Below are positions 1,928 to 57,357 of a DNA stretch of 64,000 bases, in pieces. This stretch comes from Burkholderia sp. Bp8992. Lineage in GTDB: Bacteria; Pseudomonadota; Gammaproteobacteria; Burkholderiales; Burkholderiaceae. The notes beneath the pieces are model-generated. The model did no database searches. It was not told where the DNA came from and worked only from the letters and a program-made list of their open reading frames with translations. The DNA is taken from NCBI RefSeq assembly GCF_003853705.1, contig NZ_QTQI01000011.1, forward strand, positions 1 to 64,000. The letters are read 5' to 3'. Within the stretch, counting starts at the first letter, position 1. The number at the start of each line of letters is the position of its first letter. The position numbers and the translations under genes were made by a program.

Positions 1928-1941
1928 GGCACGCGCATTGC
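1928..1941 (+). promoter_or_regulatory. Sigma-54 -24/-12 promoter candidate facing the Rieske reductase
   Basis: GGCACG-CGCA-TTGC matches the sigma-54 consensus exactly, with GG and GC at the correct spacing. The start point would be near 1953, leaving a long leader of about 178 bases before the gene at 2131. It lies in the intergenic region divergent to formate dehydrogenase, and no equally good site faces that gene. Confidence 0.6.
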
Positions 1942-2130
1942 GCGGGACGCGCGACGTGCCCCGCGGGCGGGCGGCGTGTTGCGCCGCAACGTTGATGACG
2001 TTCTACGCCCGTCATGGATCGCGTGCAAGCTACAGTCCGTGTTTGCGTGCGCTGCGGGGCGTCTGTACCTGTTCTTTTCAGGAGGGATGTCGATAATGGG
2101 ATCGTTACCTGACTTTCCGGGAGCCACGTC

Positions 2131-3663
2131 ATGACTGCAAGCGACGATTCGTCTTCGCGCCCCGATCTCGCGGCAGGCATCGCGCTCGATGACATCGCCG
2201 ACGGTGCGATGATCGAGGGCCATGTCGGCGATGCAGCGGTGCTGCTCGTGCGCCGTGCCGACGAACTGTTTGCCGTGGGGGCGAATTGCCCGCACTACGG
2301 CGCGCCGCTGGCCGACGGCCTGCTGGTCGGCGATACGATCCGCTGCCCGTGGCATCACGCGGCGTTCTGCCTGCGCACGGGCGAACTGCAGCGCGCGCCG
2401 GCGCTCGACGGGCTGCCGTGCTGGCGCGTCGAGTGCCGCGACGGCCGCGCGGTCGTGCTCGATGCGCGGCCGGCCGTCGTGCCGACTGCGCTGGAAGCGG
2501 CCGGGCTGCCGGCGTCGGTCGTGATCGTCGGCGGCGGCGCCGCTGCGATCGCGGCGGCCGTGACGCTGCGGCAGGAAGGCTATCCGCATCCCGTCACGCT
2601 GTTGAGCGCCGACGCCGATCCGCCGTACGACCGGCCGAACCTGTCGAAGGATTACCTCGCGGGCACGGCCGATGCCGACTGGCTGCCGCTGCGCGCACCG
2701 TCGTTCTATACCGCGCAGCGCATCGACGTGCGGTGCGGCACGCGCGTCGCCCGGATCGATCCCGCGCAGCACGTGGTCGAGCTGGCTGACGGCAGCCGCG
2801 TCGGATACGGCGCGCTGCTGCTCGCGACGGGCGCCGAGCCGAACCGGCTGACGGTGCCCGGTGCCGACCTGCCGCACGTGTGCGTGCTGCGCTCGCGCGC
2901 CGATTGCGACGCGCTGATCGGCAAGCTGAAAACCGCGCGCCGCTGCGTGGTGGTGGGCGCGAGCTTCATCGGCCTCGAGGCGGCCGCCGCGTTGCGTACG
3001 CGCGGGCTCGACGTGCACGTCGTCGCACCCGATGAGCGCCCGATGGCGCGCGTGCTCGGCGATGCGCTCGGCGATGCGATCAAGGCGCTGCACGAATCGC
3101 ACGGCGTCGTGTTCCATCTCGGCGCGACACCCGCGCGGATCACGCCGGACAGCGTGACGCTGTCGAACGGCGACGTGCTGCCGGCCGATGTCGTGGTGGT
3201 CGGCATCGGCGTGCATCCGAACGTCGCGCTCGCGCAGGACGCGGGGCTCGCCGTCGAACGCGGCGTGACGGTCGACCATTTCCTGCAGACGAGCGCGCCC
3301 GGCATCTACGCGGCCGGCGACATCGCGCGCTGGCCCGATCCGCTGACGGGCGAGCGGATCCGCGTCGAGCACTGGGTCGTCGCCGAGCGGCAGGGCATCG
3401 TCGCGGCGCGCAACATGCTCGGCCAGCAGCGGCCGTTCGACGCGGTGCCGTTTTTCTGGAGCCAGCATTACGACCTGACGATCCACTATGTCGGGCATGC
3501 GGAGCACTGGGATCGCGTCGAGATCGACGGTGACCTCGGCGCGCACGACTGCTCGATCGCATACTGGCGCGGCGACACGCGGCTCGCGGTCGTGACGGTC
3601 GGCCGCGATCTCGACAGCCTGAAGGCGGAAGCGGCATTCGAGCAGCAGATTGCAGCCGCGTGA
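2131..3663 (+). CDS. Rieske [2Fe-2S] / FAD-dependent ferredoxin reductase-type fusion
   Basis: 510 residues. The N-terminal domain (about 15-110) is a Rieske domain with Cys53-Pro-His55 and Cys72-Pro-Trp-His75, the two ligand pairs of a [2Fe-2S] cluster. From about residue 128 there is a pyridine-nucleotide-disulphide-type FAD/NAD(P) reductase with VVIVGGGAAA (FAD), a second nucleotide motif (CVVVGASFIGLEAA) and the late FAD motif (GIYAAGDIA). The order resembles AIFM3-like and ferredoxin reductase fusions, which pass electrons from NAD(P)H through FAD to an Fe-S centre. The electron acceptor is unknown. It is divergent from formate dehydrogenase, whose reduced cofactor could feed it; that link is inference. 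Confidence 0.9.
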   Translation: MTASDDSSSRPDLAAGIALDDIADGAMIEGHVGDAAVLLVRRADELFAVGANCPHYGAPLADGLLVGDTIRCPWHHAAFCLRTGELQRAPALDGLPCWRVECRDGRAVVLDARPAVVPTALEAAGLPASVVIVGGGAAAIAAAVTLRQEGYPHPVTLLSADADPPYDRPNLSKDYLAGTADADWLPLRAPSFYTAQRIDVRCGTRVARIDPAQHVVELADGSRVGYGALLLATGAEPNRLTVPGADLPHVCVLRSRADCDALIGKLKTARRCVVVGASFIGLEAAAALRTRGLDVHVVAPDERPMARVLGDALGDAIKALHESHGVVFHLGATPARITPDSVTLSNGDVLPADVVVVGIGVHPNVALAQDAGLAVERGVTVDHFLQTSAPGIYAAGDIARWPDPLTGERIRVEHWVVAERQGIVAARNMLGQQRPFDAVPFFWSQHYDLTIHYVGHAEHWDRVEIDGDLGAHDCSIAYWRGDTRLAVVTVGRDLDSLKAEAAFEQQIAAA

Positions 3664-3705
3664 TGGCGGCGTGACGACACAATCCGAACCTGGAGTGAAG
3701 AAGAG

Positions 3706-4083
3706 ATGAATCCCGACGTCCGTGCCCGTTTCGAAACCGAATTCGCGCCGCGTATCGCGGCGCGCCTGCGCGACCTGTACCAGCCCGGCGAAGTGACGGT
3801 CGACGTCGTGCCGCACGACGGGCAGGGCAGCCCGACCTGCGTCGACGTCGTCGGCCTCACGTCGACGGTGGGGCTGCCGAACCGGCTGAATGCGCGGCTC
3901 GCGTGGCGCGACGATGCAGTCGCCGGCTTGCTGGCCGAGCGCGACCCTGGCCGCTTCGACCGCTATCTCGCGGCACTGCCGGTGACGATCGAGCGTTGGC
4001 AGATGGAATTGCCGGTCGATTTCAGCTCGCGGACCCAGCGCGACCGCGAGATCCTGATCGGCGACCTCGATTTCGATGCATGA
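3706..4083 (+). CDS. Conserved hypothetical protein, 125 aa
   Basis: Not recognised with confidence. It is soluble, with no signal peptide or membrane segment. It begins with a charged helix-like stretch and then alternating strands (VTVDVVPHD). GGAGTGAAGAAGAG precedes the ATG. It follows the Rieske reductase by 42 bases in the same direction with no visible promoter, so it is probably cotranscribed. It looks like the small Burkholderia-restricted proteins of unknown function common elsewhere in this window. Confidence 0.7.
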   Translation: MNPDVRARFETEFAPRIAARLRDLYQPGEVTVDVVPHDGQGSPTCVDVVGLTSTVGLPNRLNARLAWRDDAVAGLLAERDPGRFDRYLAALPVTIERWQMELPVDFSSRTQRDREILIGDLDFDA

Positions 4084-4133
4084 AACGCGCGGTGCGACGG
4101 CGGCCGGGCGATGTGCCGATGAACCGCGCGACG

Positions 4134-5623: not shown

Positions 5624-5923
5624 TTGACGTCGCGTGAAGGTCGCGGTCGCACGATCGGTGCGCTGCGCGGCCGCAGGTGTGCGCCCCCTCCTGTCGATCA
5701 GGCTGGATGACGACGGGCGGTTCGCGAGGCGCTACATGGGAGTTTCGGGAAATTCGGCGAGAAGGCAGGCAAATGTCGTGCGGCGCAACGGCTGCTGACG
5801 GCCGCTGACGGCCCGATGCTTGCGGAATGGTCGCGTGCGCAGCCACCGGCCCGGGCGCACGCCTTGCTCGATAGCCTCGACGGTCACATGCACCGTTTCC
5901 GCTTTCGACAAGGAGGGCCTGAC
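5624..5923. other. 300-base intergenic region before the alcohol dehydrogenase
   Basis: No convincing gene. The useful content is two sigma-54-like sites near its right end (5810-5823 and 5854-5867) and a short direct repeat of GCTGACGGCC around 5795-5813. The left 150 bases show nothing I can name. Confidence 0.6.
5854..5867 (+). promoter_or_regulatory. Sigma-54 promoter candidate for the zinc alcohol dehydrogenase
   Basis: GGCGCA-CGCC-TTGC followed by T: one mismatch (A to G) from the consensus, with correct spacing. Start point near 5879, 45 bases before the ATG at 5924. A second site, GGCCCG-ATGC-TTGC at 5810-5823, also has one mismatch. Either could be used. Confidence 0.55.
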
Positions 5924-7492: not shown

Positions 7493-9085
7493 TTACGGCG
7501 TGTCCTGAACCTGGCGCGCGACGCGCTGCAGCAATGCGTCGAGCACGGCCATCTCGACGGGCTTCACGAGATGGCCGTCGAAGCCTGCACGTTCGGTGCG
7601 CGCCAGGTCGGACGCGCGCGCATGGCCGGACAGCGCGACGCAGGTCGTGTCGCGCAGCGCGTCGATCGCGCGCAGTTCCTGCAGCAGCGTGAAGCCGTCG
7701 ACGTCCGGCATCGTCAGGTCGAGGATCATCAGTTGCGGCAGGTAGTCGCGGGCGAGCGCCAGCGCTTCTGCCGCGTGGTACGCGACGCGCGGCGCGTGTC
7801 CCTTCACCTTGAGCAGCACGGCGAGCGTGTCGGCCGAGTCGCGGTTGTCGTCGACGATGACGATGCGCAGCGGTGTGGTGTCCGATGGCGCGTTCCTGGC
7901 CGGTTCGGGCGCGCGGACCGGCGCCGCACGCGCCATCCGGTCGATCGGCAGTTGCACCGTAAACGTCGCACCGTGACCGGGCCCGTCGCTTTCGGCGGAA
8001 ATCCGTCCGCCATGCAGTTCGACGAAGGTCCGGCAGATCGAGAGGCCGAGCCCGAAGCCGCCGCTCGGCGGGCGCCCCGGTGCGCCTTGCTGCTCGAACA
8101 GGTCGAAGATCGCTTCGAGAGCGCCGGGCGCTATGCCGACGCCGCGATCGGTGACGCGGATCGCGACCACCGGCCCTTCCACCCGCGCGCCGACGTCGAT
8201 CCGTCCGCCGTGCGGCGAGAACTTCGACGCATTGTCGAGCAGGTTGTGCAGCACCTGGACGAGCCGCGCTTCGTCGCCGTGCAGCAGCACGGCATCGGCC
8301 GGCAGGTCGACGTGGATGTGCTGCCCGCGCGCGGCCAGTTTCGGCTGGATGCTCTCGACGCCGCGACACACGACATCGCGCACGGTGACGGGGCGATCGT
8401 CGAGCTCGACCTTGCCGGCCGTGATGCGCCCGACGTCGAGCAGATCGTCGACGAGCCGCGTCAGCTGTCCGACCTGGCGGTGCACGGCGTCGCGGCACTG
8501 CGCGAGCGCGGGCGCCGGATCGGGCAGGTGCTGCAGCACGCCGACCGAGTGGCGCAGCGGCGCGAGATGGTTGCGCAACTCGTGCGCGAGCATCGCGATG
8601 AACACGCTGAGCCGGTGCGTCGACGCTTCGAGCTCCTCGAGCCGCTTGCGCTCGGTCATGTCGCGCGTGATCTTGATGAAGCCGCACAGCTGGTTCGCGT
8701 GATCGTGCACGGGGGTGATCGTCACGCTCGCCCAGAACTGCGAGCCGTCCTTGCGCACGCGCCAGCCTTCGTCCTCGAAGTGCCCGCGCCTGGCTGCCGC
8801 GTCGAGCCCGTGCGACGGCCGGCCGGCCGCGATCGCGTCGGGCGGATAGAAGCGCGAGAAGTGCTGGCCGACGATCTCGGCGGCGCGATAGCCCTTGATG
8901 CGCTCGGCCCCCTTGTTCCAGGTCGCGACGTTGCCGTACGGATCGAGCATGAATACCGCGTAATCGGTGATCGAGCCGACCACCGTCTGGAAACGGAACT
9001 CGGCGAAGCGATGCAGCAGGTCGCGCGCGTCGGGCAAGCCGGGCGGCGAGGGGGGCGAGCGAGGATCGGTGTCGTCTCTGTTCAT
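7493..9085 (-). CDS. Hybrid sensor histidine kinase with PAS and C-terminal receiver
   Basis: 530 residues, no membrane segment, so a cytosolic sensor. Domains: PAS at about 30-145, HisKA with phospho-His168 (MLAHELRNHLAP), ATPase with N-box Asn285 and GGFGLGLS, and a receiver with Asp456 (MILDLTMPD) and Lys near 505 (HLVKPVE). No DNA-binding output is present; the phosphoryl group must pass to another protein or act locally. A ligand or cofactor cannot be read from the PAS domain. The start at 9085 is the first methionine before the conserved region; upstream frames (including a TTG at 9196) lack a ribosome site. It converges with the copper-protein gene. Confidence 0.92.
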   Translation of the reverse strand: MNRDDTDPRSPPSPPGLPDARDLLHRFAEFRFQTVVGSITDYAVFMLDPYGNVATWNKGAERIKGYRAAEIVGQHFSRFYPPDAIAAGRPSHGLDAAARRGHFEDEGWRVRKDGSQFWASVTITPVHDHANQLCGFIKITRDMTERKRLEELEASTHRLSVFIAMLAHELRNHLAPLRHSVGVLQHLPDPAPALAQCRDAVHRQVGQLTRLVDDLLDVGRITAGKVELDDRPVTVRDVVCRGVESIQPKLAARGQHIHVDLPADAVLLHGDEARLVQVLHNLLDNASKFSPHGGRIDVGARVEGPVVAIRVTDRGVGIAPGALEAIFDLFEQQGAPGRPPSGGFGLGLSICRTFVELHGGRISAESDGPGHGATFTVQLPIDRMARAAPVRAPEPARNAPSDTTPLRIVIVDDNRDSADTLAVLLKVKGHAPRVAYHAAEALALARDYLPQLMILDLTMPDVDGFTLLQELRAIDALRDTTCVALSGHARASDLARTERAGFDGHLVKPVEMAVLDALLQRVARQVQDTP

Positions 9086-9273: not shown

Positions 9274-9287
9274 GGCATGCCGGTTGC
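9274..9287 (+). promoter_or_regulatory. Sigma-54 promoter for the acidic 125-aa protein
   Basis: GGCATG-CCGG-TTGC followed by A: full consensus match. Start point near 9299, 63 bases before ATG 9362. Confidence 0.75.
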
Positions 9288-9837: not shown

Positions 9838-9856
9838 GGCACGCGGCTTGCGTGCC
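9838..9856 (+). promoter_or_regulatory. Sigma-54 promoter for the BON protein and ABC-receiver gene, inside an inverted repeat
   Basis: GGCACG-CGGC-TTGC (9838-9851) is a full consensus match. The whole stretch GGCACGC-GGCTT-GCGTGCC is also a perfect 7+7 inverted repeat. Start point near 9863, 64 bases before ATG 9927. Confidence 0.75.
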
Positions 9857-14163: not shown

Positions 14164-14177
14164 GGCACGGTTTTCGC
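14164..14177 (+). promoter_or_regulatory. Weak sigma-54 promoter candidate for the SDR-glycan operon
   Basis: GGCACG-GTTT-TCGC followed by T: one mismatch in the -12 element. Start point near 14189, 68 bases before the GTG at 14257. Confidence 0.45.
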
Positions 14178-16807: not shown

Positions 16808-16810
16808 GGC

Positions 16811-22748: not shown

Positions 22749-23786
22749 TCATGGCGCCGGCGCGGACGACGCGTCGGGCGGGTTGCCGCCGTTCGCCGCA
22801 TTCGCATTCTGCGGCGCGGTGGCGCTGGCCGCGTTGCGCTCGTGCGCGGGCAGCAGCGCGAGACGGTTGTACAGCGTCTTCAGGCTGATGCCGAGCGCCT
22901 TCGCGGTACGCGGCTTGTCGCCCTTGAAATGCCGCAGCGACGCGACGATGAAGCGCTGCTGCGTATGCGCGAGCGTCGTGCCGATATGCAGCGTCATCGC
23001 GTTGTGACGGACTTCCTCGCGCGGTGGCGGGCGGCGCGGCAACTGCAGTTCGATCTGCTCGTCGGCGAGGATGAAGGCGCGTTCCAGTGCGTTGCGCAAC
23101 TCGCGCACGTTGCCGGGCCACGAATACGCGCGCAGCGCCTTCATCGCCTGCGTCGACAGCCGCTTTCTCGTGCGGTGCCGCGCATTCAGCCGCTCGACGA
23201 TCTGCAGCGCGATGTCGCCGACGTCGTCCTCGCGCTGCCTGAGCGCGGGCACGTGCAGCGCGACCGGTGCGATCCGGTAGAACAGGTCTTCGCGCAAGCG
23301 GCCGCTGCGCAGCGCCTCGACGGGATCGTGGTGGGTGGCCGCGACGATCCGCACGTCGAGCGGAATCGGCTCGTGGCCGCCGACGCGAACGATCGTGTTC
23401 GTCTCGAGCGTACGCAGCAGCTTGACCTGCAGTTCGCCGGGCATCTCGGCGATCTCGTCGAGAAACAGCGTGCCGCCGCGCGCGGCTTCGAACATGCCCA
23501 CATGCTGGGCAACGGCGCCCGTGAAGCTGCCTTTCTCGTGACCGAACAATTGCGATTCCGCGATGTCGTGCGGGATCGCGCCGCAGTTGACGGGCACGAA
23601 CGGCCCGCGTCGGCGCGGGCTCATGTCGTGGATGAGCCGCGCGACGATATCCTTGCCGGCACCGCTTTCTCCGACGATCAAAACGCTGATGCGCGTGGCC
23701 GCCACGCGCGATATTTTCAGCAGCAGATCCTGGATCGTGCGCGAGCGACCGAACAGACGTGCGCCGTCGTCGACTGATTTCGACAT
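22749..23786 (-). CDS. Sigma-54-dependent activator lacking a regulatory domain
   Basis: 345 residues. AAA+ domain from residue 1: Walker A GESGAGKD (39-46), the sigma-54 contact loop GSFTGA (86-91), Walker B Asp110-Glu111 and WPGNVREL. A Fis-type HTH ends with SLKTLYNRL (301-309), followed by a 36-residue Ala/Asn/Pro tail. There is no receiver, GAF or PAS domain, so activity must be controlled by amount or by a partner, as for PspF or HrpR/S. The recognition helix is almost identical to that of the divergent activator at 24138, which suggests shared targets. I chose ATG 23786; the longer upstream frame has no domain. Confidence 0.9.
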   Translation of the reverse strand: MSKSVDDGARLFGRSRTIQDLLLKISRVAATRISVLIVGESGAGKDIVARLIHDMSPRRRGPFVPVNCGAIPHDIAESQLFGHEKGSFTGAVAQHVGMFEAARGGTLFLDEIAEMPGELQVKLLRTLETNTIVRVGGHEPIPLDVRIVAATHHDPVEALRSGRLREDLFYRIAPVALHVPALRQREDDVGDIALQIVERLNARHRTRKRLSTQAMKALRAYSWPGNVRELRNALERAFILADEQIELQLPRRPPPREEVRHNAMTLHIGTTLAHTQQRFIVASLRHFKGDKPRTAKALGISLKTLYNRLALLPAHERNAASATAPQNANAANGGNPPDASSAPAP

Positions 23787-32144: not shown

Positions 32145-32158
32145 GGCACGCGGCTTGC
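32145..32158 (+). promoter_or_regulatory. Sigma-54 promoter for the BON/SDR stress operon
   Basis: GGCACG-CGGC-TTGC: full consensus and identical to the core at 9838. Start point near 32170, 41 bases before ATG 32211. Confidence 0.78.
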
Positions 32159-34685: not shown

Positions 34686-34699
34686 GGCATGCGGCTTGC
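34686..34699 (+). promoter_or_regulatory. Sigma-54 promoter for the SDR-DUF4142 operon
   Basis: GGCATG-CGGC-TTGC: full consensus. Start point near 34711, 23 bases before ATG 34734. Confidence 0.78.
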
Positions 34700-39135: not shown

Positions 39136-39149
39136 GCAACCGGCATGCC
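39136..39149 (-). promoter_or_regulatory. Sigma-54 promoter for the udgX-NRAMP operon
   Basis: On the minus strand GGCATG-CCGG-TTGC followed by T: full consensus. Start point near 39124, 23 bases before the small ORF and about 145 before udgX. Confidence 0.7.
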
Positions 39150-39165
39150 GCATGCAGTCGCGACG

Positions 39166-40847: not shown

Positions 40848-40861
40848 GCAAGCCGCGTGCC
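40848..40861 (-). promoter_or_regulatory. Sigma-54 promoter for the CBS-PRC operon
   Basis: On the minus strand GGCACG-CGGC-TTGC followed by T: full consensus, same core as 9838 and 32145. Start point near 40836, 35 bases before ATG 40801. Confidence 0.78.
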
Positions 40862-41176: not shown

Positions 41177-41190
41177 GCAACGGTCGTGCC
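41177..41190 (-). promoter_or_regulatory. Sigma-54 promoter for the 84-aa protein
   Basis: On the minus strand GGCACG-ACCG-TTGC: full consensus. Start point near 41165, 28 bases before ATG 41137. Only 14 bases separate it from the divergent site at 41205. Confidence 0.75.
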
Positions 41191-41204: not shown

Positions 41205-41218
41205 GGCACACGACTTGC
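41205..41218 (+). promoter_or_regulatory. Sigma-54 promoter for the 101-aa protein
   Basis: GGCACA-CGAC-TTGC: full consensus. Start point near 41230, 68 bases before ATG 41298. Confidence 0.75.
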
Positions 41219-41710: not shown

Positions 41711-41724
41711 GGCATGCGCATTGC
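41711..41724 (+). promoter_or_regulatory. Sigma-54 promoter for the three-gene operon at 41793
   Basis: GGCATG-CGCA-TTGC: full consensus. Start point near 41736, 57 bases before ATG 41793. Confidence 0.78.
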
Positions 41725-42865: not shown

Positions 42866-42879
42866 GGCACGAAAGCTGC
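42866..42879 (+). promoter_or_regulatory. Sigma-54-like promoter of the rpoN paralogue (autoregulation)
   Basis: TGGCACG-AAAG-CTGC: all conserved positions match except C for the first T of TTGC; the extra T before GG also fits the consensus. Start point near 42891, 39 bases before ATG 42930. If functional, the sigma factor gene would be transcribed by sigma-54 polymerase. Confidence 0.6.
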
Positions 42880-42929: not shown

Positions 42930-44363
42930 ATGTCCGTCTCGCTTGCGCTGCAGATGCGACAGCATCTGGCACTTACGCCGAGGCTTCAGCAGTCGCTGCG
43001 GCTGCTGCAGTTGTCCTCGCTCGAATTTCAACAGGAATTGCGGCAGGCGCTCGACATGAATCCGTTTCTCGAAGACGGCCAGGGCGACGAGGAACCTGCT
43101 CCCGGCACGCCGGAGCAGCCGGCCGAAACGGCCGCGCCCGAAGCGACGCCCGAACCCGACGAAGTCCGCCCGCCGGACGGCGAAGTGCCGTTTACGGCCG
43201 CACCCGCGCCGCGCGGCACGAATCGCCAGGGCGACGATGCAGACGGCCTGTCGCCGGGCGAATGGATCGCCGCGGAGCCGTCGCTGCATCAGCAGCTGCA
43301 CGACGCGCTCAGGCTGTATCCGTTGAACAGGCGCGACCGCGAAGCCGCGCGCATCGTGATCGACGCGCTCGACGACGACGGCTACCTGCGCCAGGAACTG
43401 CCCGAGCTGCTGATCGCGGCCGATCCGGCGCTGCTGCTGTCGGAACAGGATCTCGCGATCGCGCTGCGGCTCGTGCAGATGCTCGACCGGCCGGGCATCG
43501 CCGCGCGTTCGCTGTCCGAATGCCTGACGTTGCAGCTCGATGCGATTCCGGCCGGCACGCCGGCGCTGGCGGAAGCGAAAGCGATCGCGCGCGAGCATCT
43601 CGAACGGCTCGCGCGCCGCGAGACGGCCGAGATCCAGCGGCGCCTCGGCTGCAACCCGCAGACGCTGCATGCGGCCTGCGCGCTGGTGCGCGGGCTCGAC
43701 CCGCGGCCCGGCAATCACTACGGCAGCACGCGCGGCGACTATGTGGTGCCCGACGTGATCGTGCGCCAGGTACGCGACGAATGGATCGTGACGATCAACC
43801 CGGCCGTGCTGCCGCGCGCGCGCCTGCACGAGCGCTACGCGACGCTGTTCGCGCAGTCGAGCGGCGAGCGCGATTCGCCGCTCGGCCAGCAGCTGCAGGA
43901 GGCGCGCTGGTTGATCCGCAACGTGCAGAAGCGCTTCGACACGATCCAGCGCGTGGGCGAATGCATCGTCGCGCGGCAACGCGACTTCTTCCGCTACGGC
44001 GAGATCGCGATGAAGCCGCTGGTGCTGCGCGACATCGCGGAAGAACTCGACCTGCACGAATCGACGGTGTCGCGTGCGACCGGCAACAAGTACATGGCCA
44101 CGCCGCACGGCACGTTCGAGTTCAAGCATTTCTTCCCGCGCAAGCTCGAGGCGGCCGGCAAGGGCGTGTGTTCGGCATCGGCCGCGAAGGTGCTGATCCG
44201 CGACATGATCGCGGCCGAGCGGCATACCGAACCGCTGTCCGACGTCGCGCTCGCGGAGAACCTCGCGGGGCGCGGCATTCTTCTTGCGCGTCGCACGGTG
44301 ACGAAGTATCGCCAGGCGATGAAGATTCCGCCGGCCGACCTGCGGCGCCGCGATGCCGCGTGA
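42930..44363 (+). CDS. rpoN: RNA polymerase sigma-54 factor, RpoN paralogue
   Basis: 477 residues with all parts of sigma-54. Region I is Gln/Leu-rich (LRMRQHLALTPRLQQSLRLL-like, residues 8-30). Region II is acidic and Pro-rich (about 45-105). The core-binding domain follows, then an HTH (DIAEELDLHESTVSRATGNKY) and the RpoN box ARRTVTKYR at 453-461, which reads the -24 element. The acidic linker is shorter and its sequence differs from the usual Burkholderia housekeeping RpoN as I remember it, so I take it to be a second copy. CAGGAGG fixes the start. It heads a row of stress genes. Confidence 0.95.
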   Translation: MSVSLALQMRQHLALTPRLQQSLRLLQLSSLEFQQELRQALDMNPFLEDGQGDEEPAPGTPEQPAETAAPEATPEPDEVRPPDGEVPFTAAPAPRGTNRQGDDADGLSPGEWIAAEPSLHQQLHDALRLYPLNRRDREAARIVIDALDDDGYLRQELPELLIAADPALLLSEQDLAIALRLVQMLDRPGIAARSLSECLTLQLDAIPAGTPALAEAKAIAREHLERLARRETAEIQRRLGCNPQTLHAACALVRGLDPRPGNHYGSTRGDYVVPDVIVRQVRDEWIVTINPAVLPRARLHERYATLFAQSSGERDSPLGQQLQEARWLIRNVQKRFDTIQRVGECIVARQRDFFRYGEIAMKPLVLRDIAEELDLHESTVSRATGNKYMATPHGTFEFKHFFPRKLEAAGKGVCSASAAKVLIRDMIAAERHTEPLSDVALAENLAGRGILLARRTVTKYRQAMKIPPADLRRRDAA

Positions 44364-45347: not shown

Positions 45348-47453
45348 ATGACCCATTCCCCCTCAGCCGGCAAGATTTCGCCCGCGCCGTCGCCCGACAG
45401 CGCGAAGTCGCGCCAGCTCGACGAAAACCGTGTGCGGCCCGACCACGAGGCGTTGCGCACCAACCAGGGCGTACGGATCGCCGACAACCAGAACACGCTG
45501 CGCGGCGGCCCGCGCGGCCCGTCGCTGCTCGAAGACTTCATCATGCGCGAGAAGATCACGCACTTCGATCACGAGCGCATTCCCGAGCGCGTGGTGCACG
45601 CGCGCGGCTCGGCCGCGCACGGCGTGTTCCGCGTCTACGAACCGATGGCCGACTACACGAAGGCCGCGTTCCTGCAGGACCCGGCCGCCGAAACGCCGGT
45701 GTACGTGCGCTTCTCCACGGTGCAGGGGCCGCGCGGGTCGGCCGACACCGTGCGCGACGTGCGCGGCTTCGCGGTGAAGTTCTACACGGAGGAAGGCAAC
45801 TACGACCTCGTCGGCAACAACATGCCGGTGTTCTTCATCCAGGACGCGATCAAGTTTCCCGACTTCGTGCATGCGGTGAAGCCCGAGGCGCCGAACGAGA
45901 TGCCGACCGGCGCATCCGCGCACGACACGTTCTGGGATTTCGTGTCGCTGGTGCCGGAAGCCACGCACATGGTGCTGTGGCTAATGTCGGATCGCGCGCT
46001 GCCCGCGAGCTTTCGCGCGATGGACGGCTTCGGCGTGCACACGTTCCGCTTCGTGAACGCGGCCGGCGACGTGCGTTTCGTGAAGTTCCACTGGCGCCCG
46101 GTGAGCGGCGCGTATTCGCTGCTGTGGGACGAGGCGCAGCGGATCGCCGGCCATGACCCGGATTTCAACCGGCGCGACCTGTGGATGGCGATCGAGCGCG
46201 GCGACTATCCGGAGTTCGAACTGGGCGTGCAGATGATCGACCCGGCCGATGCCGACACCTTCGGCTTCGACTTGCTGGATCCGACCAAGCTGGTGCCGGA
46301 AGAACGGGTGCCGGTGCGGCCGATCGGCCGGATGACGCTGAACCGCAATCCCGACAACTTCTTCGCGGAGACCGAGCAGGTCGCGTTTCATCCGGGCCAC
46401 GTGGTGCCGGGCATCGACTTCACGAACGATCCGCTGTTGCAGGGGCGCCTGTTCTCGTACACCGATACGCAACTGAGCCGGCTGGGCGGCCCGAACTTCC
46501 ACGAGATTCCGATCAACCGGCCGGTGTGCCCGTTCGCGAACAACCAGCGCGACGCGCTGCACCGGCAGACGATCAACGTCGGGCAGGCGTCGTACGAGCC
46601 GAATTCCACGAGCGGCGGCTGGCCGCGCGAGACGCCGCCCGCGCCGTCCGGCGGCGGCTTCGAGACCGTGCACGAGCCGCTCGAAGGCGACAAGGTGCGC
46701 GTGCGCAGCGAATCGTTCGCCGACCATTTCTCGCAGGCCGCGTTGTTCTATCAGAGCATGACCGAGATCGAGCAGCGGCATATTCGCGACGCGTACTGCT
46801 TCGAACTCGGCAAGGTGACGCAGCCGCAGATTCGCGAACGTGTGGTGAACGAAACGATCGCGCGCTTCGACGCGGGGCTGGCCGCGCAGGTCGCCGAACG
46901 GCTCGGGCTGCCCGCGCCGCAGGCGGCCGCGACGCCGGCCGTCGCGCAGCGCTCGCCCGCGCTGAGCCTGATCGGGCGCTCGAAGCCCGGCATCCGCTCG
47001 CGCAAGATTGCGCTGATCGCGACGCCGGGCGTGAGCCAGACGCTCGTCGAGCAGGTGCGCGACGCGCTGCAGGCCGCGCACGCGGTGCCGACGATCGTCG
47101 CGCCGACGCTCGCGCCGATCGGCAGCATCGTGCCGCAGGCGACGCTGGCCGGCATGCCGTCGGTGATGTTCGACGCGGTGTTCGTCTGCGGCGGCGACGG
47201 CGACGGCCGCGACCTCGCGCACAGCGCCGACGCACGGCACTTCGTGCGCGAGGCGTTCAAGCACCTGAAGCCGATCGCGGCCGTCGGGTCGGGGCGGCAA
47301 CTGCTGAGCGCCGCGCACCTGCCGGATCCGGCCGAAGGCGTGTGCGTCGGGCAGGCCGTCGATCTCGACGCGATCCTGAAGACGTTGTCGGACGACCTCG
47401 GCCAGCATCGCGTCTGGGCGCGCGAGCCGCAGGCCGCCGAGTTGCCGGCCTAG
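45348..47453 (+). CDS. katE: Large-subunit catalase (KatE / HPII type)
   Basis: 701 residues, the length of clade 2 catalases, which carry a C-terminal flavodoxin-like (DJ-1/PfpI) domain from about 550 ([19 protein letters not shown]). Haem-site features: catalytic His84 in [12 protein letters not shown], Asn in VGNNMPVFF, and the proximal Tyr motif RLFSYTDTQ. It breaks down hydrogen peroxide in the cytoplasm; in other bacteria it is a stationary-phase enzyme. A 130-base gap precedes it in which I see no clear promoter, so it may be read from rpoN onward. Confidence 0.96.
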
Positions 47454-47465
47454 CGCCGCGCGATC

Positions 47466-47969
47466 ATGGACGCCGTCGTCGCGCTGTTCGGACAGGGCCG
47501 GATGCTCGACCCCGGGCAGATGGTGTTGCGCGCGATCGTCGTGGCCGTGATCGCGCTCGTGCTGATCCGCATCGCCGGGCGGCGGGCGTTCGGCCAGCGT
47601 TCGCCGTTCGACTACGTGGTCGGGATCCTGCTCGGCGCGATCCTGAGCCGCGCGGTGGTCGGCGCGTCGCCGTTCGTGGCGACCGTCGCGGCGTCGTTCG
47701 CGATTGCGCTGCTGCATCGCGCGATTGGCTGGGCCTGCGTGCGCTCGCGCCGGCTCGAGCGGCTGCTGGTGGGTGTCGAGCGCGAGGTGTATCACCACGG
47801 CCGCTTCGACGACGCGCAGATGCGTGCCGCGCTGATCACGCCGACCGACATCCGCGAAAGCGTGCGGCAGGCACTCGGCGCGACCGACCTGGCCGACGTC
47901 GACGCGGCGATCCTCGAGCGCAACGGCCACGTCAGCATCGTGCGGCGAAGCCGCTGCCGCAGGCACTGA
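47466..47969 (+). CDS. YetF/DUF421 family membrane protein
   Basis: 167 residues. Three hydrophobic segments in the first 85 residues with IRIAGRRAFGQRSPFDYVVGILLGAILSR, the DUF421 signature. A small cytosolic domain ends DVDAAILERNGHVSIV. Function unknown. Only 12 bases separate it from the catalase stop; no distinct ribosome site, so coupling is likely. Confidence 0.88.
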   Translation: MDAVVALFGQGRMLDPGQMVLRAIVVAVIALVLIRIAGRRAFGQRSPFDYVVGILLGAILSRAVVGASPFVATVAASFAIALLHRAIGWACVRSRRLERLLVGVEREVYHHGRFDDAQMRAALITPTDIRESVRQALGATDLADVDAAILERNGHVSIVRRSRCRRH

Positions 47970-48015
47970 CGTTCGGTGCATGAAGGGGGCGCCACACGCC
48001 ACAAGGAGGGCATCG

Positions 48016-49011
48016 ATGGCACGGATGATCTGGAAAGGCGCGATCAGCTTCGGGCTCGTTCACGTGCCCGTGCAGCTGTTCCCGGCCACGCGTACCGTGA
48101 AGCCGTCGTTCCGGCTGCTCGACAAGCGCTCGATGGACCCGGTCGGTTACCGGCAGATCAACAAGCGCACCGGCAAGGAGGTCACGCGCGAGGACATCGT
48201 GCGCGGCTACGAGTACGAGAAGGAACGCTATGTCGTGCTGACCGACGACGAGATCCGCGCGGCGAACCCCGAATCGACGCAGACGGTCGACATCGTCACG
48301 TTCGTCGACGAGGACGCCGTGTCGTTCCTGTATCTCGACACACCGTACTACCTCGTGCCGGACCGCAAGGGCGAGAAGGTCTATGCGCTGTTGCGCGACG
48401 CGCTGAAGGACAGCGGCAAGATCGGCATCGCGCATGTCGTGATGCGCGACCGGCAGCATCTCGGTGCGCTGATTCCGGTCGGGCCGCTGCTCGCGCTCGA
48501 TACGCTGCGCTGGCAGGAGGAACTGCGCCCGCTCGACGAGCTGTCGGTGCCGGCCGGCGACGCGAAGCGCGCCGGCGTCAGCGCGCGCGAACTCGCGATG
48601 GCGAAGAAGCTGATCGACGACATGTCGGGCACCTGGACGCCCGACGAGTATCACGACACGTTTCGCGACGACATCCTCGAGCTGGTCGAGCGCAAGGTGC
48701 GCGCGGGCCGGATCGAGGCGATCGAGGACCGGCCGGCGCAGACGGGGCGCGCGGCGTCCAACGTCGTCGACCTGACCGAGCTGCTCAAGCGCAGCCTGAA
48801 GGGCGGGGCGCGTGCGGCCGATGCGGACGACGAAGGGGAGGCCGAGGCGCCGGTGTCGTCGCGTGGCGCCGGCGCGCGGCGCAAGCCGGCGTCGAAAACG
48901 CCGGCGAGAGGCGCGGCGAAGGCGCCCGCCAAACGCACGGCCGCGAAGCACGGTGCGACCGGCGCGCACGCGGCGAAGAAGACCGCCGCGCGCCGCAAGC
49001 ATGCTGCATGA
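48016..49011 (+). CDS. ku: Ku protein, non-homologous end joining
   Basis: 331 residues. Begins ARMIWKGAISFGLVHVPVQL, the conserved start of bacterial Ku, with the beta-barrel core over about 1-260 and a Lys/Ala-rich C-terminal tail (KTPARGAAKAPAKRTAAK) that binds DNA and partners. Homodimeric Ku holds broken DNA ends and recruits LigD. AAGGAGGG precedes ATG 48016. It is followed by ligD after 24 bases. Confidence 0.97.
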   Translation: MARMIWKGAISFGLVHVPVQLFPATRTVKPSFRLLDKRSMDPVGYRQINKRTGKEVTREDIVRGYEYEKERYVVLTDDEIRAANPESTQTVDIVTFVDEDAVSFLYLDTPYYLVPDRKGEKVYALLRDALKDSGKIGIAHVVMRDRQHLGALIPVGPLLALDTLRWQEELRPLDELSVPAGDAKRAGVSARELAMAKKLIDDMSGTWTPDEYHDTFRDDILELVERKVRAGRIEAIEDRPAQTGRAASNVVDLTELLKRSLKGGARAADADDEGEAEAPVSSRGAGARRKPASKTPARGAAKAPAKRTAAKHGATGAHAAKKTAARRKHAA

Positions 49012-49035
49012 CGGCGCACGACGGAGGGAAACGCG

Positions 49036-51783
49036 ATGGCCGGCAAGCTCGAACCGTATCGCCGCAAGCGCCGCTTCGACGAGAGCCCTGAACCCGAGGG
49101 CGCGCACGGGCGGCGGCGCGCGCATGCCGATGCGCATGCGCAGAAGCCTCGACCGTCCGCGCGCGCGGGCCGGCCGCTGCGCTTCGTGATCCAGGAACAT
49201 CACGCACGGCGGCTCCATTACGACTTCCGTCTCGAACTCGACGGCACGCTGAAGTCGTGGGCCGTGCCGAAGGGGCCGAGCGTCGACCCGTCGGTGAAGC
49301 GGCTGGCCGTGCACGTCGAGGATCATCCGCTCGAATACGCGTCGTTCGAAGGCGAGATTCCGGCCGGCCATTACGGCGCGGGCTCGGTCGTCGTCTGGGA
49401 CGAAGGCACGTGGACGCCCGACGGCGGCGTCGCGCAGGCACGCGACGGCTACCGGGCGGGCAAGCTGACGTTCCGGCTCGACGGCACGAAGCTGCACGGC
49501 GGCTGGGCGCTCGTGCGCAGCGGGCGGCAGCAGGGCCGCCAGGAGCAATGGCTGCTGATCAAGGAACGCGACGACGACGCGCGCGACGCCGAGGCGTTCG
49601 ACGTGGTCGCGCAGCGGCCGGGCAGCGTCCATCACGAACACACGCCGGCCGCGCGCAGGAAGCGCGGCGATGGCGGTGCGTCCGGCCCGCGCAGCGCGCG
49701 TCGCGACGACGACGCAGGACATGCGTCGGCCGATCTGTCCGACATCGACGGCGCCGTGCGCGCGGCGTTGCCCGAGCGCGTCGCGCCGCAACTCGCGACG
49801 CTGGTCGACGGGCCGCCTGCGCACGGCGACTGGCGCTACGAAGTGAAATTCGACGGCTACCGGATCCTCGCGCGGATCGCGGGCCGCGGCGCGCGGCGGC
49901 ACGTCGTGCTGATGACGCGCGAAGGCCGCGACTGGACCGCGAAACTGCGCGCGCAGCGCGACGCGCTTGCCGCGCTCGACGTCGACAATGCGTGGCTCGA
50001 TGGCGAGGCCGTCGTGCTGGGCGCCGACGGCCTGCCCGATTTCCAGGCGCTGCAGAACGCGCTCGGCGCGGGGCGCTCGGACGCCGTGACGCTGTTTGTC
50101 TTCGATCTGCCGTTCCTCGACGGATACGACCTGCGCGACGCGCCGCTCGCCGCGCGTCGCGCGCGGCTCGAACCGCTGCTCGCCCGCAGCGACCCCGCGC
50201 GGCTGCGCTACTCGCCCGACCTCGGCGACGACGTCGCGTCGCTGATCGCGAGCGCGTGCGACACGGGGCTCGAGGGGCTGATCGGCAAGCGCGCGGATTC
50301 GCGCTATCGCGGCGGCCGTTCGCCTGCGTGGATCAAGCTGAAATGCAGGCGGCGCCAGGAGTTCGTGATCGGCGGCTATACCGAGCCGTCGGGCAGCCGG
50401 CATGGCTTCGGCGCGCTGCTGCTCGGTGTGTACGAGCCCGCCGCGGGCGGCAAGCGGTCGCGCGGCGCGCCGCCGCTGCGCTACGTCGGCCGCGTCGGCA
50501 CCGGGTTCGATACGCGCCTGCTCGACCGGCTCGCGGCCACGTTGCGCAAGCACGAACGCGACACGACGCCGTTCGATCCACCGCCGCGCGAACGGTCGCG
50601 CACGCGCGTGCACTGGGTCGAGCCGACGCTCGTCGCCGAGTGCGAGTTCGCGGAATGGACGGGCGACGGGATCGTGCGGCAGGCGGCGTTCGTCGCGCTG
50701 CGCGAAGACAAGCCGGCGCGGCAGATCGTCCGCGAGGTGCCGCGGCAACCCGAAACGGAGGCGACGATGGATGAACCCCGTGCAGCGCACGACCGACAAC
50801 CGCCCGAGCCGCATGCGGATGCCGCGCATGGCCGCCGGTCGCGCGCACGATCGCCTGCGTCTGCCGGCCGTGCGCGCGGCGCGTCCGGCGCCGATCAGGT
50901 CGGCCATGTGCGCATCACGCATCCCGATCGCGTGATCGACCCGCAAAGCGGCACGCGCAAGATCGACCTCGCGCATTACTGGCAATGGGTCGCGCCGTGG
51001 CTGCTGCCCGACCTCAAAGGCCGGCCCGTGTCGCTCGTGCGCGCGCCGGGCGAGATTGCCGGCGAACTGTTCTTCCAGAAGCATGCGGAACGACGCGAGA
51101 TCCCGTTCGTCACGCAGCACGCCGGGCTCGACCCCGGCCACGGGCCGCTGCTGTCGATCGACAGCGTCGACGCGCTGCTCGGCGCCGCGCAGATGGGCAC
51201 GGTCGAGCTGCATACGTGGAATGCGCATGCGTCGAACGTCGAGCGGCCCGACCGCATCGTGTTCGACCTCGATCCCGACCCGGCGCTGCCGTGGCGCGCG
51301 ATGATCGACGCCGCGCAGCTCGTGCGCGGGTTGCTCGACGAGCTGGGGCTCGTATCGTTCTGCAAGACGAGCGGCGGCAAGGGGCTGCACGTCGTCGTGC
51401 CGCTTACGCGGCATGCGGGCTGGGACGACGTGAAGGATTTCTCCCGCGCGGTCGCGCAGCATGTCGCCGCTACGCTGCCCGAGCGCTTCACCGCGACGAT
51501 GGGGCCGCGTCACCGGCGCGGCAAGATCTTCGTCGATTACCTGCGCAACGGCCGCGGCGCGAGCACGATCGCCGCGTACTCGGTGCGCGCGCGGCCCGGC
51601 ATGGGCGTGTCGGTGCCGCTCGACTGGGACGAGGTGCCCGATACGACGGGCGGCGCGCAATGGACGATCGACACGCTGCACGAGCGGCTCGATGCGCTGA
51701 AGCGCGATCCGTGGGAAGGCTACGCGAAGACGCGCCAGCGCATCACCGCCGCGATGCGCGCGCGGCTCGCGGCGGAAACATGA
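49036..51783 (+). CDS. ligD: ATP-dependent DNA ligase LigD (PE-LIG-POL)
   Basis: 915 residues in the order phosphoesterase - ligase - polymerase. PE domain (about 45-190): FVIQEHHARRLHYDFRLE. Ligase: motif I KFDGYR with Lys near 271, later IGKRADSRYRGGRSPAWIKLK. Polymerase/primase (about 620-915): HPDRVIDPQSGTRKIDLAHY and the metal motif FDLDPD. It repairs double-strand breaks with Ku by end processing, gap filling and sealing. All three domains look intact. It ends convergently with the antiporter gene. Confidence 0.97.
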   Translation: MAGKLEPYRRKRRFDESPEPEGAHGRRRAHADAHAQKPRPSARAGRPLRFVIQEHHARRLHYDFRLELDGTLKSWAVPKGPSVDPSVKRLAVHVEDHPLEYASFEGEIPAGHYGAGSVVVWDEGTWTPDGGVAQARDGYRAGKLTFRLDGTKLHGGWALVRSGRQQGRQEQWLLIKERDDDARDAEAFDVVAQRPGSVHHEHTPAARRKRGDGGASGPRSARRDDDAGHASADLSDIDGAVRAALPERVAPQLATLVDGPPAHGDWRYEVKFDGYRILARIAGRGARRHVVLMTREGRDWTAKLRAQRDALAALDVDNAWLDGEAVVLGADGLPDFQALQNALGAGRSDAVTLFVFDLPFLDGYDLRDAPLAARRARLEPLLARSDPARLRYSPDLGDDVASLIASACDTGLEGLIGKRADSRYRGGRSPAWIKLKCRRRQEFVIGGYTEPSGSRHGFGALLLGVYEPAAGGKRSRGAPPLRYVGRVGTGFDTRLLDRLAATLRKHERDTTPFDPPPRERSRTRVHWVEPTLVAECEFAEWTGDGIVRQAAFVALREDKPARQIVREVPRQPETEATMDEPRAAHDRQPPEPHADAAHGRRSRARSPASAGRARGASGADQVGHVRITHPDRVIDPQSGTRKIDLAHYWQWVAPWLLPDLKGRPVSLVRAPGEIAGELFFQKHAERREIPFVTQHAGLDPGHGPLLSIDSVDALLGAAQMGTVELHTWNAHASNVERPDRIVFDLDPDPALPWRAMIDAAQLVRGLLDELGLVSFCKTSGGKGLHVVVPLTRHAGWDDVKDFSRAVAQHVAATLPERFTATMGPRHRRGKIFVDYLRNGRGASTIAAYSVRARPGMGVSVPLDWDEVPDTTGGAQWTIDTLHERLDALKRDPWEGYAKTRQRITAAMRARLAAET

Positions 51784-53556: not shown

Positions 53557-53570
53557 GCAAACCGCGTGCC
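53557..53570 (-). promoter_or_regulatory. Sigma-54 promoter for the DUF3175-antiporter operon
   Basis: On the minus strand GGCACG-CGGT-TTGC: full consensus. Start point near 53545, 38 bases before ATG 53507. Only 22 bases lie between it and the divergent site. Confidence 0.77.
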
Positions 53571-53592: not shown

Positions 53593-53606
53593 GGCATGGG
53601 CCTTGC
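53593..53606 (+). promoter_or_regulatory. Sigma-54 promoter for the Gly-rich exported protein
   Basis: GGCATG-GGCC-TTGC followed by T: full consensus. Start point near 53618, 56 bases before ATG 53674. Confidence 0.77.
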
Positions 53607-54708: not shown

Positions 54709-54722
54709 GGCACGCCGATTGC
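54709..54722 (+). promoter_or_regulatory. Sigma-54 promoter for the DJ-1/PfpI operon
   Basis: GGCACG-CCGA-TTGC followed by T: full consensus. Start point near 54734, 39 bases before ATG 54773. A perfect inverted repeat CGATTGC-TGC-GCAATCG (54716-54732) overlaps the -12 element, and another, GGCAC-GACCT-GTGCC (54738-54752), follows the start point. Confidence 0.78.
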
Positions 54723-56015: not shown

Positions 56016-56033
56016 CGCGCCCTCGCGCGGCGC

Positions 56034-57290
56034 TTACCGCGCGATCGCGACGGACGCGTTGACCTGGACGACGGGTGTCCGGCCGTCGAACGGCGGCGCA
56101 TGCAGGAAGCGGTCGATCACGCCGGCCTCGAACAGCAGGCAGTACGTCGATCCGCCGAACTGGAAGTAGCCGATTTCGTCGCCCTTGTCGACGCGTTGTC
56201 CCGGCACGACCTCGACCACGCACGACGACACGTCGCCCATCCCGACGAACACGGCTGCCACGGTGCCGATGCCGGGATCGTCGCAGGCGATCGCGACCAC
56301 CGCGCGCGTGGCGACGGCCGTCGTGTAGCCCTGCGAATCGTTCAGGCCGGCCGGGTCCGGGCCTTCCGCTTCGGCGACCGAGTAGTAGGTGCCGTCGACG
56401 CGGTACGCATGCGTGACGACGCCGCGCACCGGCGCATGCCAGCGATGGTAGTTGTACGCGCTCAGGTAAGCCTGGTACACGTCGCCGCCGACGAAGCGCT
56501 CGGCGAGCGACAGCCGTGCGGGCGTGAAGAGGTCGCGCAGCGAATACGGCTGCGCCTTGATCCAGAACGTGTCGCGCAGCTTGACGTTCGACTCGGTGTG
56601 ATAAGGCGCGGCCTCGCACGCGCTGACGATCACGTGCGGATCGTCGGGCGCCGCGACCGGGCGCGCGCCGTCACGAAAGCGCCGCGTGAAGAAGTCGTTC
56701 CACGAATCGAAGCCCCAGTGCGGCTGGTCTTCGCGATACTGGAACTGCGACAGCCCGAGGCGCTTGCGCGCTTCGTCGCAGAACCAGCCGTCGGGCGCCG
56801 ACGTGTCGAGATGCGCGCGCGAATGCGGGCCGCCGAGGAAATCGCACCATACGTTCAGCACGCGCTTCAATTGCGCGTTGACGGCCGCGTCGCGAAACAC
56901 CGCGTGGCCCGACGGCATGCACATCGGCCAGTCGAAGAACGCGTTCAGCGGGCACACGATCAGGCTTTCCTCGCTGAACGGCGGCGTGTAGGTCATCAGA
57001 TGATCGATCACGGTCATCAACTCGCCGATCGACGTGTAGCCGAGCCGGTGTCCCGATTCGATTGCTTCGTCGATCGCGCGGGTCAGGCTCATGCGCAGCA
57101 CGGCGTCGTCGTCGAACAGCCGCGCGAGTGCCTGCACGGCGGGCGTGCGCAGCCGGTCGCCCGCATGCGCGCGGGCGTCGGCCGCGATCTTCTCGCGGAA
57201 CGCGACCATGTGGGCTTCTTCGCGCGCCATCCATTCGCCGAGCCGACGGCGCGTGGCGGGCGGCGGGTTGCGGTCGGTCGGCATCGTCAC
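56034..57290 (-). CDS. Phosphatidylserine decarboxylase-like protein
   Basis: 418 residues, longer than the housekeeping enzyme (about 210-320). An N-terminal 'PSD-associated' region (about 1-170) is followed by the decarboxylase-like domain: NYHRWHAPVRG, and near the end GYFQFGGSTYCLLFE. The Gly-Ser-Thr of GGST corresponds to the self-cleavage (LGST) site that generates the pyruvoyl group. It may decarboxylate phosphatidylserine or another serine- or amino-acid-derived substrate. No membrane segment. GGAGGT precedes the ATG. Confidence 0.85.
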   Translation of the reverse strand: MTMPTDRNPPPATRRRLGEWMAREEAHMVAFREKIAADARAHAGDRLRTPAVQALARLFDDDAVLRMSLTRAIDEAIESGHRLGYTSIGELMTVIDHLMTYTPPFSEESLIVCPLNAFFDWPMCMPSGHAVFRDAAVNAQLKRVLNVWCDFLGGPHSRAHLDTSAPDGWFCDEARKRLGLSQFQYREDQPHWGFDSWNDFFTRRFRDGARPVAAPDDPHVIVSACEAAPYHTESNVKLRDTFWIKAQPYSLRDLFTPARLSLAERFVGGDVYQAYLSAYNYHRWHAPVRGVVTHAYRVDGTYYSVAEAEGPDPAGLNDSQGYTTAVATRAVVAIACDDPGIGTVAAVFVGMGDVSSCVVEVVPGQRVDKGDEIGYFQFGGSTYCLLFEAGVIDRFLHAPPFDGRTPVVQVNASVAIAR

Positions 57291-57322
57291 CTCCGGGCAT
57301 CAATTCGGGACGACATGACGCA

Positions 57323-57336
57323 GCAAGATGCTTGCC
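57323..57336 (-). promoter_or_regulatory. Sigma-54 promoter candidate for the decarboxylase-like gene
   Basis: On the minus strand GGCAAG-CATC-TTGC followed by T: one mismatch (C to A). Start point near 57311, 21 bases before ATG 57290. Confidence 0.6.
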
Positions 57337-57343
57337 CGGATTC

Positions 57344-57357
57344 GGCACCGAAATTGC
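57344..57357 (+). promoter_or_regulatory. Sigma-54 promoter for the 82-aa basic protein
   Basis: GGCACC-GAAA-TTGC: matches all strong positions. Start point near 57369, 31 bases before ATG 57400. Only seven bases separate it from the divergent site at 57336. Confidence 0.68.

Follow-up and report, generated by a model that had tools for sequence, protein, structure and literature searches.

A window of 64,000 nucleotides from Burkholderia sp. Bp8992 (NCBI RefSeq assembly GCF_003853705.1, contig NZ_QTQI01000011.1, positions 1 to 64,000 of the forward strand) carries, between positions 1,928 and 57,357, a dense set of intergenic sigma-54-type (-24/-12) promoter elements around rpoN2, the gene of a second sigma-54 factor. 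It is likely that this island represents the home locus of RpoN2, an ancient second sigma-54 of the Burkholderiaceae, which would be made under the control of the housekeeping paralogue RpoN1 and serve its own regulon of protective-looking genes from a private class of promoters. The promoters of the island differ from usual sigma-54 promoters at a single base, position -26, and this difference could provide the second copy with a private regulon. A preliminary description of the same DNA had proposed a sigma-54-driven stress island with an rpoN paralogue and about twenty promoters; what is added here is the base at -26, the canonical form of the rpoN2 promoter and the conservation across genera.

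The pattern GGCAYR-N4-TTGC has 14 exact matches in the window, against 0.59 expected (standard deviation 0.79), and the maximum in 100 dinucleotide-preserving shuffles was 3, with 0/100 reaching 14. The preliminary description had counted 13 exact sites against about one by chance; the count rises to 14, all on its list of 21 sites, 7 of which are of the one-mismatch kind. For 20 of the 21, a match with no more than one mismatch starts at the exact base given, and the element listed at 39166 in reality lies at 39142, 24 bases away. All 14 exact matches are intergenic once the start of the gene called at 9209 is moved to 9362. Orthologues of this gene align only from residue 47-54, so that the real start is probably close to 9362 and the site at 9274 is not coding. 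When up to one mismatch is allowed, the window contains 46 matches versus 21.3 expected, so that a lone one-mismatch site is weak evidence.

The window was also scanned with a sigma-54 matrix of assumed base frequencies, with position -26 ignored and a score threshold of 12. Two genes were corrected for the final scan, the one with its start at 9362 and a second, masked as 608-1894, which lies at 736-1898 on the minus strand, divergent to gene 2131, was missed by the mechanical gene call and is, as we presume from its N-terminus, formate-dehydrogenase-like. The scan returned 20 intergenic hits in 5.8 kb versus 2 hits in 58 kb of coding sequence (about 3.5/kb versus 0.03/kb), so that the coding regions do not carry the equal density of hits that would have spoken against the preliminary description. 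In 300 Markov simulations of the intergenic DNA of the window, the mean was 0.88 hits and the maximum 5; at a score of 10, the matrix gave 23 intergenic and 11 coding hits. The earlier statement that the sites are intergenic and correctly oriented holds for 14/14 exact matches in the first respect and, in the second, for 19 of the 20 intergenic matrix hits, which point to a gene within 350 bp; 18 of these 19 sit 34-189 bp before the called start.

The spacing of the two elements was compared in the window and in related loci, taken from the best 80 of 174 rpoN2 loci. The window has 18 oriented intergenic hits at N4 and 0-1 at N2, N3, N5, N6 and N7 (before start correction), 25 related Burkholderia loci have 132 oriented hits at N4 versus 3-6 at other spacings, and 54 Paraburkholderia/Caballeronia-type loci have 263 versus 13-17. 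The window sites thus display the GG and GC elements at fixed spacing that characterize sigma-54 promoters. The individual elements are listed below, with the fraction of orthologues that keep a site where available.

1928..1941, plus strand: before Rieske/reductase gene 2131; exact; kept in 6/6 orthologues.
5854..5867, plus: before alcohol dehydrogenase gene 5924; one mismatch, matrix hit.
9274..9287, plus: before gene 9362 (acidic 125-aa protein); exact; site in only 4/28 orthologues.
9838..9851, plus: before BON-domain gene 9927; exact; 1/1 orthologue.
14164..14177, plus: weak, before SDR gene 14311; one mismatch, matrix hit.
27187..27200, minus: weak, before PIG-L family gene 26425-27135; one mismatch, matrix hit.
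32005..32018, minus: before glycosyltransferase/epimerase genes 29584-31949; exact; 2/2 orthologues.
32145..32158, plus: before BON-domain gene 32211; exact; 5/5 Burkholderia and 52/53 other orthologues.
34686..34699, plus: before SDR gene 34734, followed by DUF4142 and DUF892-like genes; exact; 6/8 Burkholderia, 0/1 other.
39136..39149, minus: before uracil-DNA glycosylase/Nramp genes; exact; 10/10 orthologues.
39142..39155, plus: overlapping divergent element before receiver-protein gene 39213; one mismatch; 3/8 Burkholderia, 0/1 other.
40848..40861, minus: before CBS-domain gene 40370; exact; 13/14 orthologues.
41177..41190, minus: before 84-aa gene 40883; exact; 10/14 orthologues.
41205..41218, plus: before 92-aa gene 41325; exact; 13/13 Burkholderia, 2/11 others.
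41711..41724, plus: 322 bp before the called start of 103-aa gene 42047; exact; 11/12 orthologues.
42866..42879, plus: rpoN2's own element, 64 bp ahead of the gene at 42930; T at -26 as in canonical promoters; one mismatch.
53557..53570, minus: before DUF3175 gene 53151; exact; 14/14 Burkholderia, 1/20 others.
53593..53606, plus: before 147-aa, secreted-looking gene 53674; exact; 4/4 orthologues.
54709..54722, plus: before DJ-1/PfpI gene 54773; exact; 7/7 Burkholderia, 35/35 others.
57323..57336, minus: before phosphatidylserine-decarboxylase-like gene 56034; one mismatch, matrix hit; 1/3 orthologues.
57344..57357, plus: weak and doubtful, before 82-aa gene 57400; one mismatch, matrix score 10.7; 2/2 orthologues without a score-12 site.

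The complete genome of a relative, Burkholderia sp. MS389 (G001), stood in for a genome-wide scan. Of its 91 strict sites, 17 fall within 77 kb round rpoN2 (C3:858-936 kb), an interval picked after the hits were seen; the density in the rest of the genome predicts 0.74. Fifteen of these 17 sites are oriented and intergenic, and 2 lie in coding sequence. An N5 control pattern gave 48 hits in the genome, 1 of them in the same interval. Intergenic density amounted to 2.42/kb in the 100 kb round rpoN2 versus 0.061/kb in twenty other 20-kb stretches. The dense set proposed in the preliminary description is thus borne out both by the matrix scan of the window and by clustering in the genome of a relative. 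In Paraburkholderia xenovorans LB400, the 4.5 kb of intergenic DNA at rpoN2 contained 8 matrix sites, versus 5 in 39 kb elsewhere.

Sites were kept in 106/121 orthologous upstream regions of Burkholderia for window genes with a site versus 24/298 for genes without one, and in 90/121 versus 88/290 in other genera. The last figure stems mostly from rpoN2 itself (51/54), which, with a window score below 12, was counted as a gene lacking a site, and from the PRC (23/24) and DUF4142 (11/41) genes. The strongest cross-genus targets are BON gene 32211 (52/53) and the DJ-1 gene (35/35).

Position -26 separates two promoter classes. The rpoN2 promoter has T at -26 in 25/25 of those Burkholderia loci that have a site, out of 26 examined, and, for the best-scoring site, in 52/54 other loci; the exceptions are L023, which has no site, and L042 and L060, which have a T site ranked second by score. 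Among 14 more distant Burkholderiaceae rpoN2 promoters, 13 have T, and the remaining one offers a C and a T candidate. In 16 genomes examined, T is found in 14/14 glnK and 8/8 ureA promoters with a site, and no sigma-54 site was present at glnB in 14 examined. The 20 intergenic window sites with a score of at least 12 include none with T (0/20); T at -26 is a usual, although not absolute, feature of sigma-54 promoters. Island promoters bear C, G or A at this position and T rarely (12/124 island targets in Burkholderia, 21/217 in other genera). With the promoters sorted into groups, T predominates in 3/3 (rpoN2, glnK, ureA) versus 0/12 target groups (Fisher p 0.002).

A gene for a Dps-like protein, well away from the island, shows C at -26 in 5/5 proximal sites (14 loci examined, 7 with a site, of which 2 weak ones at 286 bp were not counted as proximal; the partial or weak matches L260-L263 were left out). 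In MS389, T is present in 2/15 oriented intergenic strict sites in the island and 12/34 outside it, and in 4/24 coding sites outside. The genes downstream of the non-island sites were annotated with Pfam for 10/13 of the T class and 10/22 of the non-T class. The former encode an aldehyde dehydrogenase, urease, P-II, two MFS transporters, an AraC-type regulator, a PQQ dehydrogenase, acetyl-CoA synthetase, a 2-hydroxycarboxylate transporter and FMN reductase; the latter, among which chance sites are expected, comprise a Dps-like protein, a DUF72 protein and mainly unrelated enzymes and regulators. The G+C content is 66-75% per 2-kb step across the window. Composition alone does not remove T, because the glnK, ureA and rpoN2 promoters keep it in the same or related genomes. 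Among the papers listed by the literature searches, which covered few subscription journals, none described the -26 difference or this regulon in Burkholderiaceae.

RpoN2 belongs to the sigma-54 family by its three Pfam domains, all of which score over the cut-off. The consensus of the sigma-54 RpoN box is ARRTVAKYRE, and the box of the window protein reads ARRTVTKYRQ. The final residue is E in 16/16 RpoN1 proteins compared versus Q, H, R or G in 25/25 RpoN2 proteins; three deposited sequences in the alignment read KYRE, and three loci (2 Burkholderia, 1 other) yielded no box from a wrong-frame open reading frame at the rpoN position, a problem that also makes the identity value of L028 an artefact. 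The departure from the consensus is variation within the sigma-54 family, not a ground for exclusion from it. The box is the part of the protein that binds the -24 element (PMC4496707). RpoN2 shares about 43-44% identity with RpoN1, compared with 60-65% for the RpoN2 proteins of Paraburkholderia and Caballeronia. When 41 proteins were placed in a midpoint-rooted tree, RpoN1 and RpoN2 formed one clade each, with support values of 0.97 and 1.0. Among 100 genomes drawn from the family of MS389, 70 encode a relative of the query, and most full-length proteins among the matches listed are either RpoN2-like, with more than about 50% identity, or RpoN1-like, with near 45%. The window copy of rpoN is 95% identical to those of B. 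arboris, B. anthina chromosome 3 and MS389 chromosome 3, and a 24.5-kb piece of the window is covered to 97%, at 88% identity, by a 1.1-Mb replicon of B. cenocepacia; the window thus probably derives from the third replicon of some member of the Burkholderia cepacia complex.

The RpoN copy, the two sigma-54 activators and the two hybrid kinases named in the preliminary description were all recovered with Pfam. The genes concerned, together with those downstream of rpoN2, are the following.

42930..44363, plus strand: rpoN2, second sigma-54; 477 aa, Pfam AID, core-binding and DNA-binding domains.
24138..25505, plus: response-regulator sigma-54 activator; REC, AAA+ and Fis HTH domains, GSFTGA loop; candidate activator of the regulon.
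22749..23852, minus: second sigma-54 activator, without a receiver, divergent from 24138; GSFTGA loop.
27255..29564, plus: hybrid histidine kinase; DUF4118, PAS, HisKA, HATPase and REC (Pfam).
7493..9037, minus: second hybrid histidine kinase; PAS, HisKA, HATPase and REC (Pfam).
45348..51783, plus: katE, a gene for a DUF421 protein, ku and ligD (Pfam); without a sigma-54 site of their own.

Both activators have the AAA+ domain of bacterial enhancer-binding proteins, with GSFTGA as a variant of the GAFTGA loop. A match to activator 24138 (38-96% identity) occurs in the fetched rpoN2 flanks of 30/80 loci, and the hybrid kinase 27255 has its counterpart directly downstream of the activator in five of them (L001, L004, L006, L010, L013). 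Two divergent activators near rpoN2 are also present in L024 and in many Caballeronia-type loci. In the loci L202-L208, taken as Ralstonia-like from protein identity and an almost identical rpoN2 promoter, the activator gene has its own T-class sigma-54 promoter, which was found in 0/10 Burkholderia loci examined.

Enhancers were sought as gapped dyads and inverted repeats upstream of the sites in 14 window regions and 19 regions of the relative, and the search was redone with masking, since overlapping divergent promoters had dominated the first run. Several hundred thousand words were possible, and a few came near a nominal p of 1e-8, but these were not the same in the two sets. The best word in the window, CCGTCGTC (nominal p 1e-8), occurred in 7/14 regions, with 6 regions of the background containing it as well. 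It was absent from the words listed for the relative, whose best word was another one; the regions are related. Inverted repeats upstream of the sites were no denser than in the background (3.3 versus 3.9 per kb).

We propose that RpoN1 transcribes rpoN2 from its canonical T(-26) promoter under nutrient limitation, with the dependence on rpoN1 being what we infer for this species. RpoN2 polymerase would then occupy about twenty (C/G/A)GGCAYG-N4-TTGC promoters. Promoters without T(-26) are probably poor substrates for RpoN1, and RpoN2 may tolerate or prefer them, although we infer which factor reads which class; the change of the last RpoN-box residue from glutamate to Q, H, R or G is a candidate cause, by correlation. 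Opening of these promoters would depend on an ATP-driven activator. The likeliest one is response regulator 24138, with hybrid kinase 27255 as its input, a role suggested by the linkage seen. The predicted output comprises BON, CBS, PRC and DJ-1 proteins, uracil-DNA glycosylase, a Dps-like ferritin and dehydrogenases, and katE-ku-ligD may follow by read-through from rpoN2. The outcome would be an enhancer-gated stress or starvation regulon that is partly insulated by one promoter base. The 'stress' character of the regulon is read from its gene content, which is protective-looking. A wider version, in which a sigma-54 to sigma-54 cascade operates throughout the family, RpoN2, released from dependence on T(-26) through the lost box glutamate, reads a private T-less set and an enhancer-gated general stress response is insulated from nitrogen control by one base, appears to us about as probable as its opposite.

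For katE, ku and ligD, the picture is different from the one first drawn. No site of at least 5 bits precedes katE in the window, and a sigma-54 site was present upstream of 0/6 katE, 0/11 ku and 0/11 ligD orthologues, so that direct sigma-54 control of katE was rejected. Since the region 42930-51783 lies on one strand with short gaps, read-through of katE-ku-ligD from the rpoN2 promoter is possible. The idea of a sigma-54 stress island stands as far as the conserved, dense promoters beside an rpoN paralogue and the protective-looking genes are concerned, but not for katE, ku and ligD as genes with their own sites. The alpha-glucan/trehalose-type operon 58024-63991 begins at or past the window edge, and its promoter is thus outside the view.

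Apart from the proteins named above, Pfam identified BON, CBS, PRC, DJ-1, DUF3175, DUF4142 and DUF892 proteins, uracil-DNA glycosylase, a long catalase, Ku and LigD, as well as alpha-glucan/trehalose-type enzymes at the right end of the window. A glycan cluster in the middle (14311-22738) encodes a carbamoyltransferase, heptosyltransferase-family and other glycosyltransferases (Pfam). It includes an IS605 OrfB/TnpB-like gene (19568-20620, minus strand) with OrfB_IS605 and Cas12f1-like TNB domains and a GC3 of only 0.75. The gene at 10820-13555 (plus strand, 911 aa) encodes an ABC transporter, with membrane and ATPase parts, that ends in a C-terminal response-regulator receiver, apparently an unusual fusion. 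Close to rpoN2, a gene for a 53-aa DUF1328 protein (44673-44834, plus strand) is 75-87% conserved near rpoN2 in distant genera (L202-L208, L212, L213), and in the Ralstonia-like loci L202-L208 it has its own T-less -24/-12 element upstream.

Several observations weigh against a private RpoN2 regulon. For this organism, the proposal is drawn from sequence. About 10% of the target sites have T at -26, including the 2/15 in the MS389 island, and 22/34 oriented intergenic strict sites outside that island also lack T; most genes behind the 10 non-T non-island sites examined are no obvious stress genes. Target sets change between genera (DUF3175 gene, 1/20; gene 41325, 2/11; gene 9362, 4/28), and the strict pattern gave 94 hits in LB400 without a cluster at rpoN2, where only the degenerate matrix shows one. 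No clear shared enhancer emerged from the 14 window and 19 relative regions. The RpoN-box change is a single evolutionary contrast at the level of clades, and RpoN1 and RpoN2 differ in many other ways, so that as a cause of promoter choice it is a candidate by correlation. The RpoN2 proteins of B. pseudomallei (PMC4745423) and Ralstonia (PMC4676750) complement an E. coli rpoN mutant, and Ralstonia rpoN2 carried on a plasmid allows an rpoN1 mutant to grow again on C4-dicarboxylates (PMC4676750). Because of this complementation, which is partial in the Ralstonia rpoN1 mutant, RpoN2 can serve ordinary sigma-54 promoters. The variant in which RpoN2 rejects T promoters was dropped on the same grounds, and the promoter code would be at best one-way. 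An earlier claim, cited in PMC4745423, places KatE of B. pseudomallei under RpoS.

The alternative that fares best, with a probability somewhat short of even, is a narrower programme for nutrient limitation or stationary phase, placed downstream of RpoN1, with the protective genes as its output and no general stress response. It agrees with Ralstonia rpoN2, which is silent in complete medium and which minimal medium induces by way of rpoN1 (PMC4371752), and with the expression of B. pseudomallei katE, detected at 48-72 h. The targets identified with Pfam are of protective or envelope type and include no nitrogen genes, which speaks against it; yet this programme is compatible with a private RpoN2 regulon.

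It is rather improbable that the elements are real sigma-54 promoters read by ordinary RpoN1, with RpoN2 redundant or minor and C(-26) a mirror of the high G+C content. The window is indeed G+C-rich, the -24/-12 core is canonical and the complementation data indicate overlapping activity, but the glnK, ureA and rpoN2 promoters keep T(-26) almost without exception in the same or related genomes, and the B. pseudomallei katE transcript was undetected without RpoN2 despite intact rpoN1. Finally, a site of another regulator merely resembling -24/-12 is very unlikely: the evidence is sequence-only and there is no clear shared enhancer, but the two elements keep a strict N4 spacing and one orientation, stand 34-189 bp from the called start in 18/19 oriented hits and recur beside rpoN2 across genera.

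The proposed RpoN2 regulon resembles the general stress responses under RpoS or EcfG in its protective content (Dps-like and catalase-type functions). In such a response, one sigma factor switches on a regulon under diverse stresses. Unlike these, sigma-54 requires an ATP-driven activator and uses -24/-12 promoters. If the proposal is true, a stress regulon would be placed behind an ATP-gated sigma factor, and paralogous sigma-54 factors would be separated by promoter sequence. The lxa locus of B. cenocepacia (BCAM0275-BCAM0323), which is characterized by its gene set and its activation at low oxygen, lies, by its numbering, on another replicon. By its published description it is likewise a large Burkholderia persistence island with a BON-domain protein; the word rpoN is absent from the main text of the paper on it (PMC6127331). 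In Bradyrhizobium DOA9, the second RpoN (RpoNp) is tied to stress adaptation and its motif shifts from TGG to CGG before the -24 GG (PMC13207237), as in the island. That system differs in belonging to an alpha-proteobacterium and in having 22 sites that either RpoN may serve, and the sections of the paper available describe no island or cascade.

In B. pseudomallei, where rpoN2 is located on chromosome 2, the katE transcript was undetected in an rpoN2 mutant and an RpoN box is predicted before katE (PMC4745423). Control of katE by RpoN2 had thus already been reported, and the 'new type' of general stress control announced in the preliminary description is too strong a claim. There, one target gene was followed by transcript, whereas the present proposal comprises a regulon of many promoters together with a promoter code and an activator, and katE has no site of its own in this lineage. 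R. solanacearum likewise has a paralogous, 44% identical pair, whose members are not interchangeable (PMC4676750). Its rpoN2 expression is abolished in an rpoN1 mutant and its rpoN2 promoter reads TGGCAC (PMC4371752). The available sections of these papers (PMC4371752, PMC4676750) describe no stress regulon, and the role of RpoN2 is termed enigmatic (PMC4371752). The TGGCAC consensus was used there to look for targets of RpoN2, and 37/40 listed hits have T (PMC4371752); a one-base promoter code, if true, would help to explain why Ralstonia RpoN2 targets were missed in this way, and it makes the question of RpoN2 targets directly testable.

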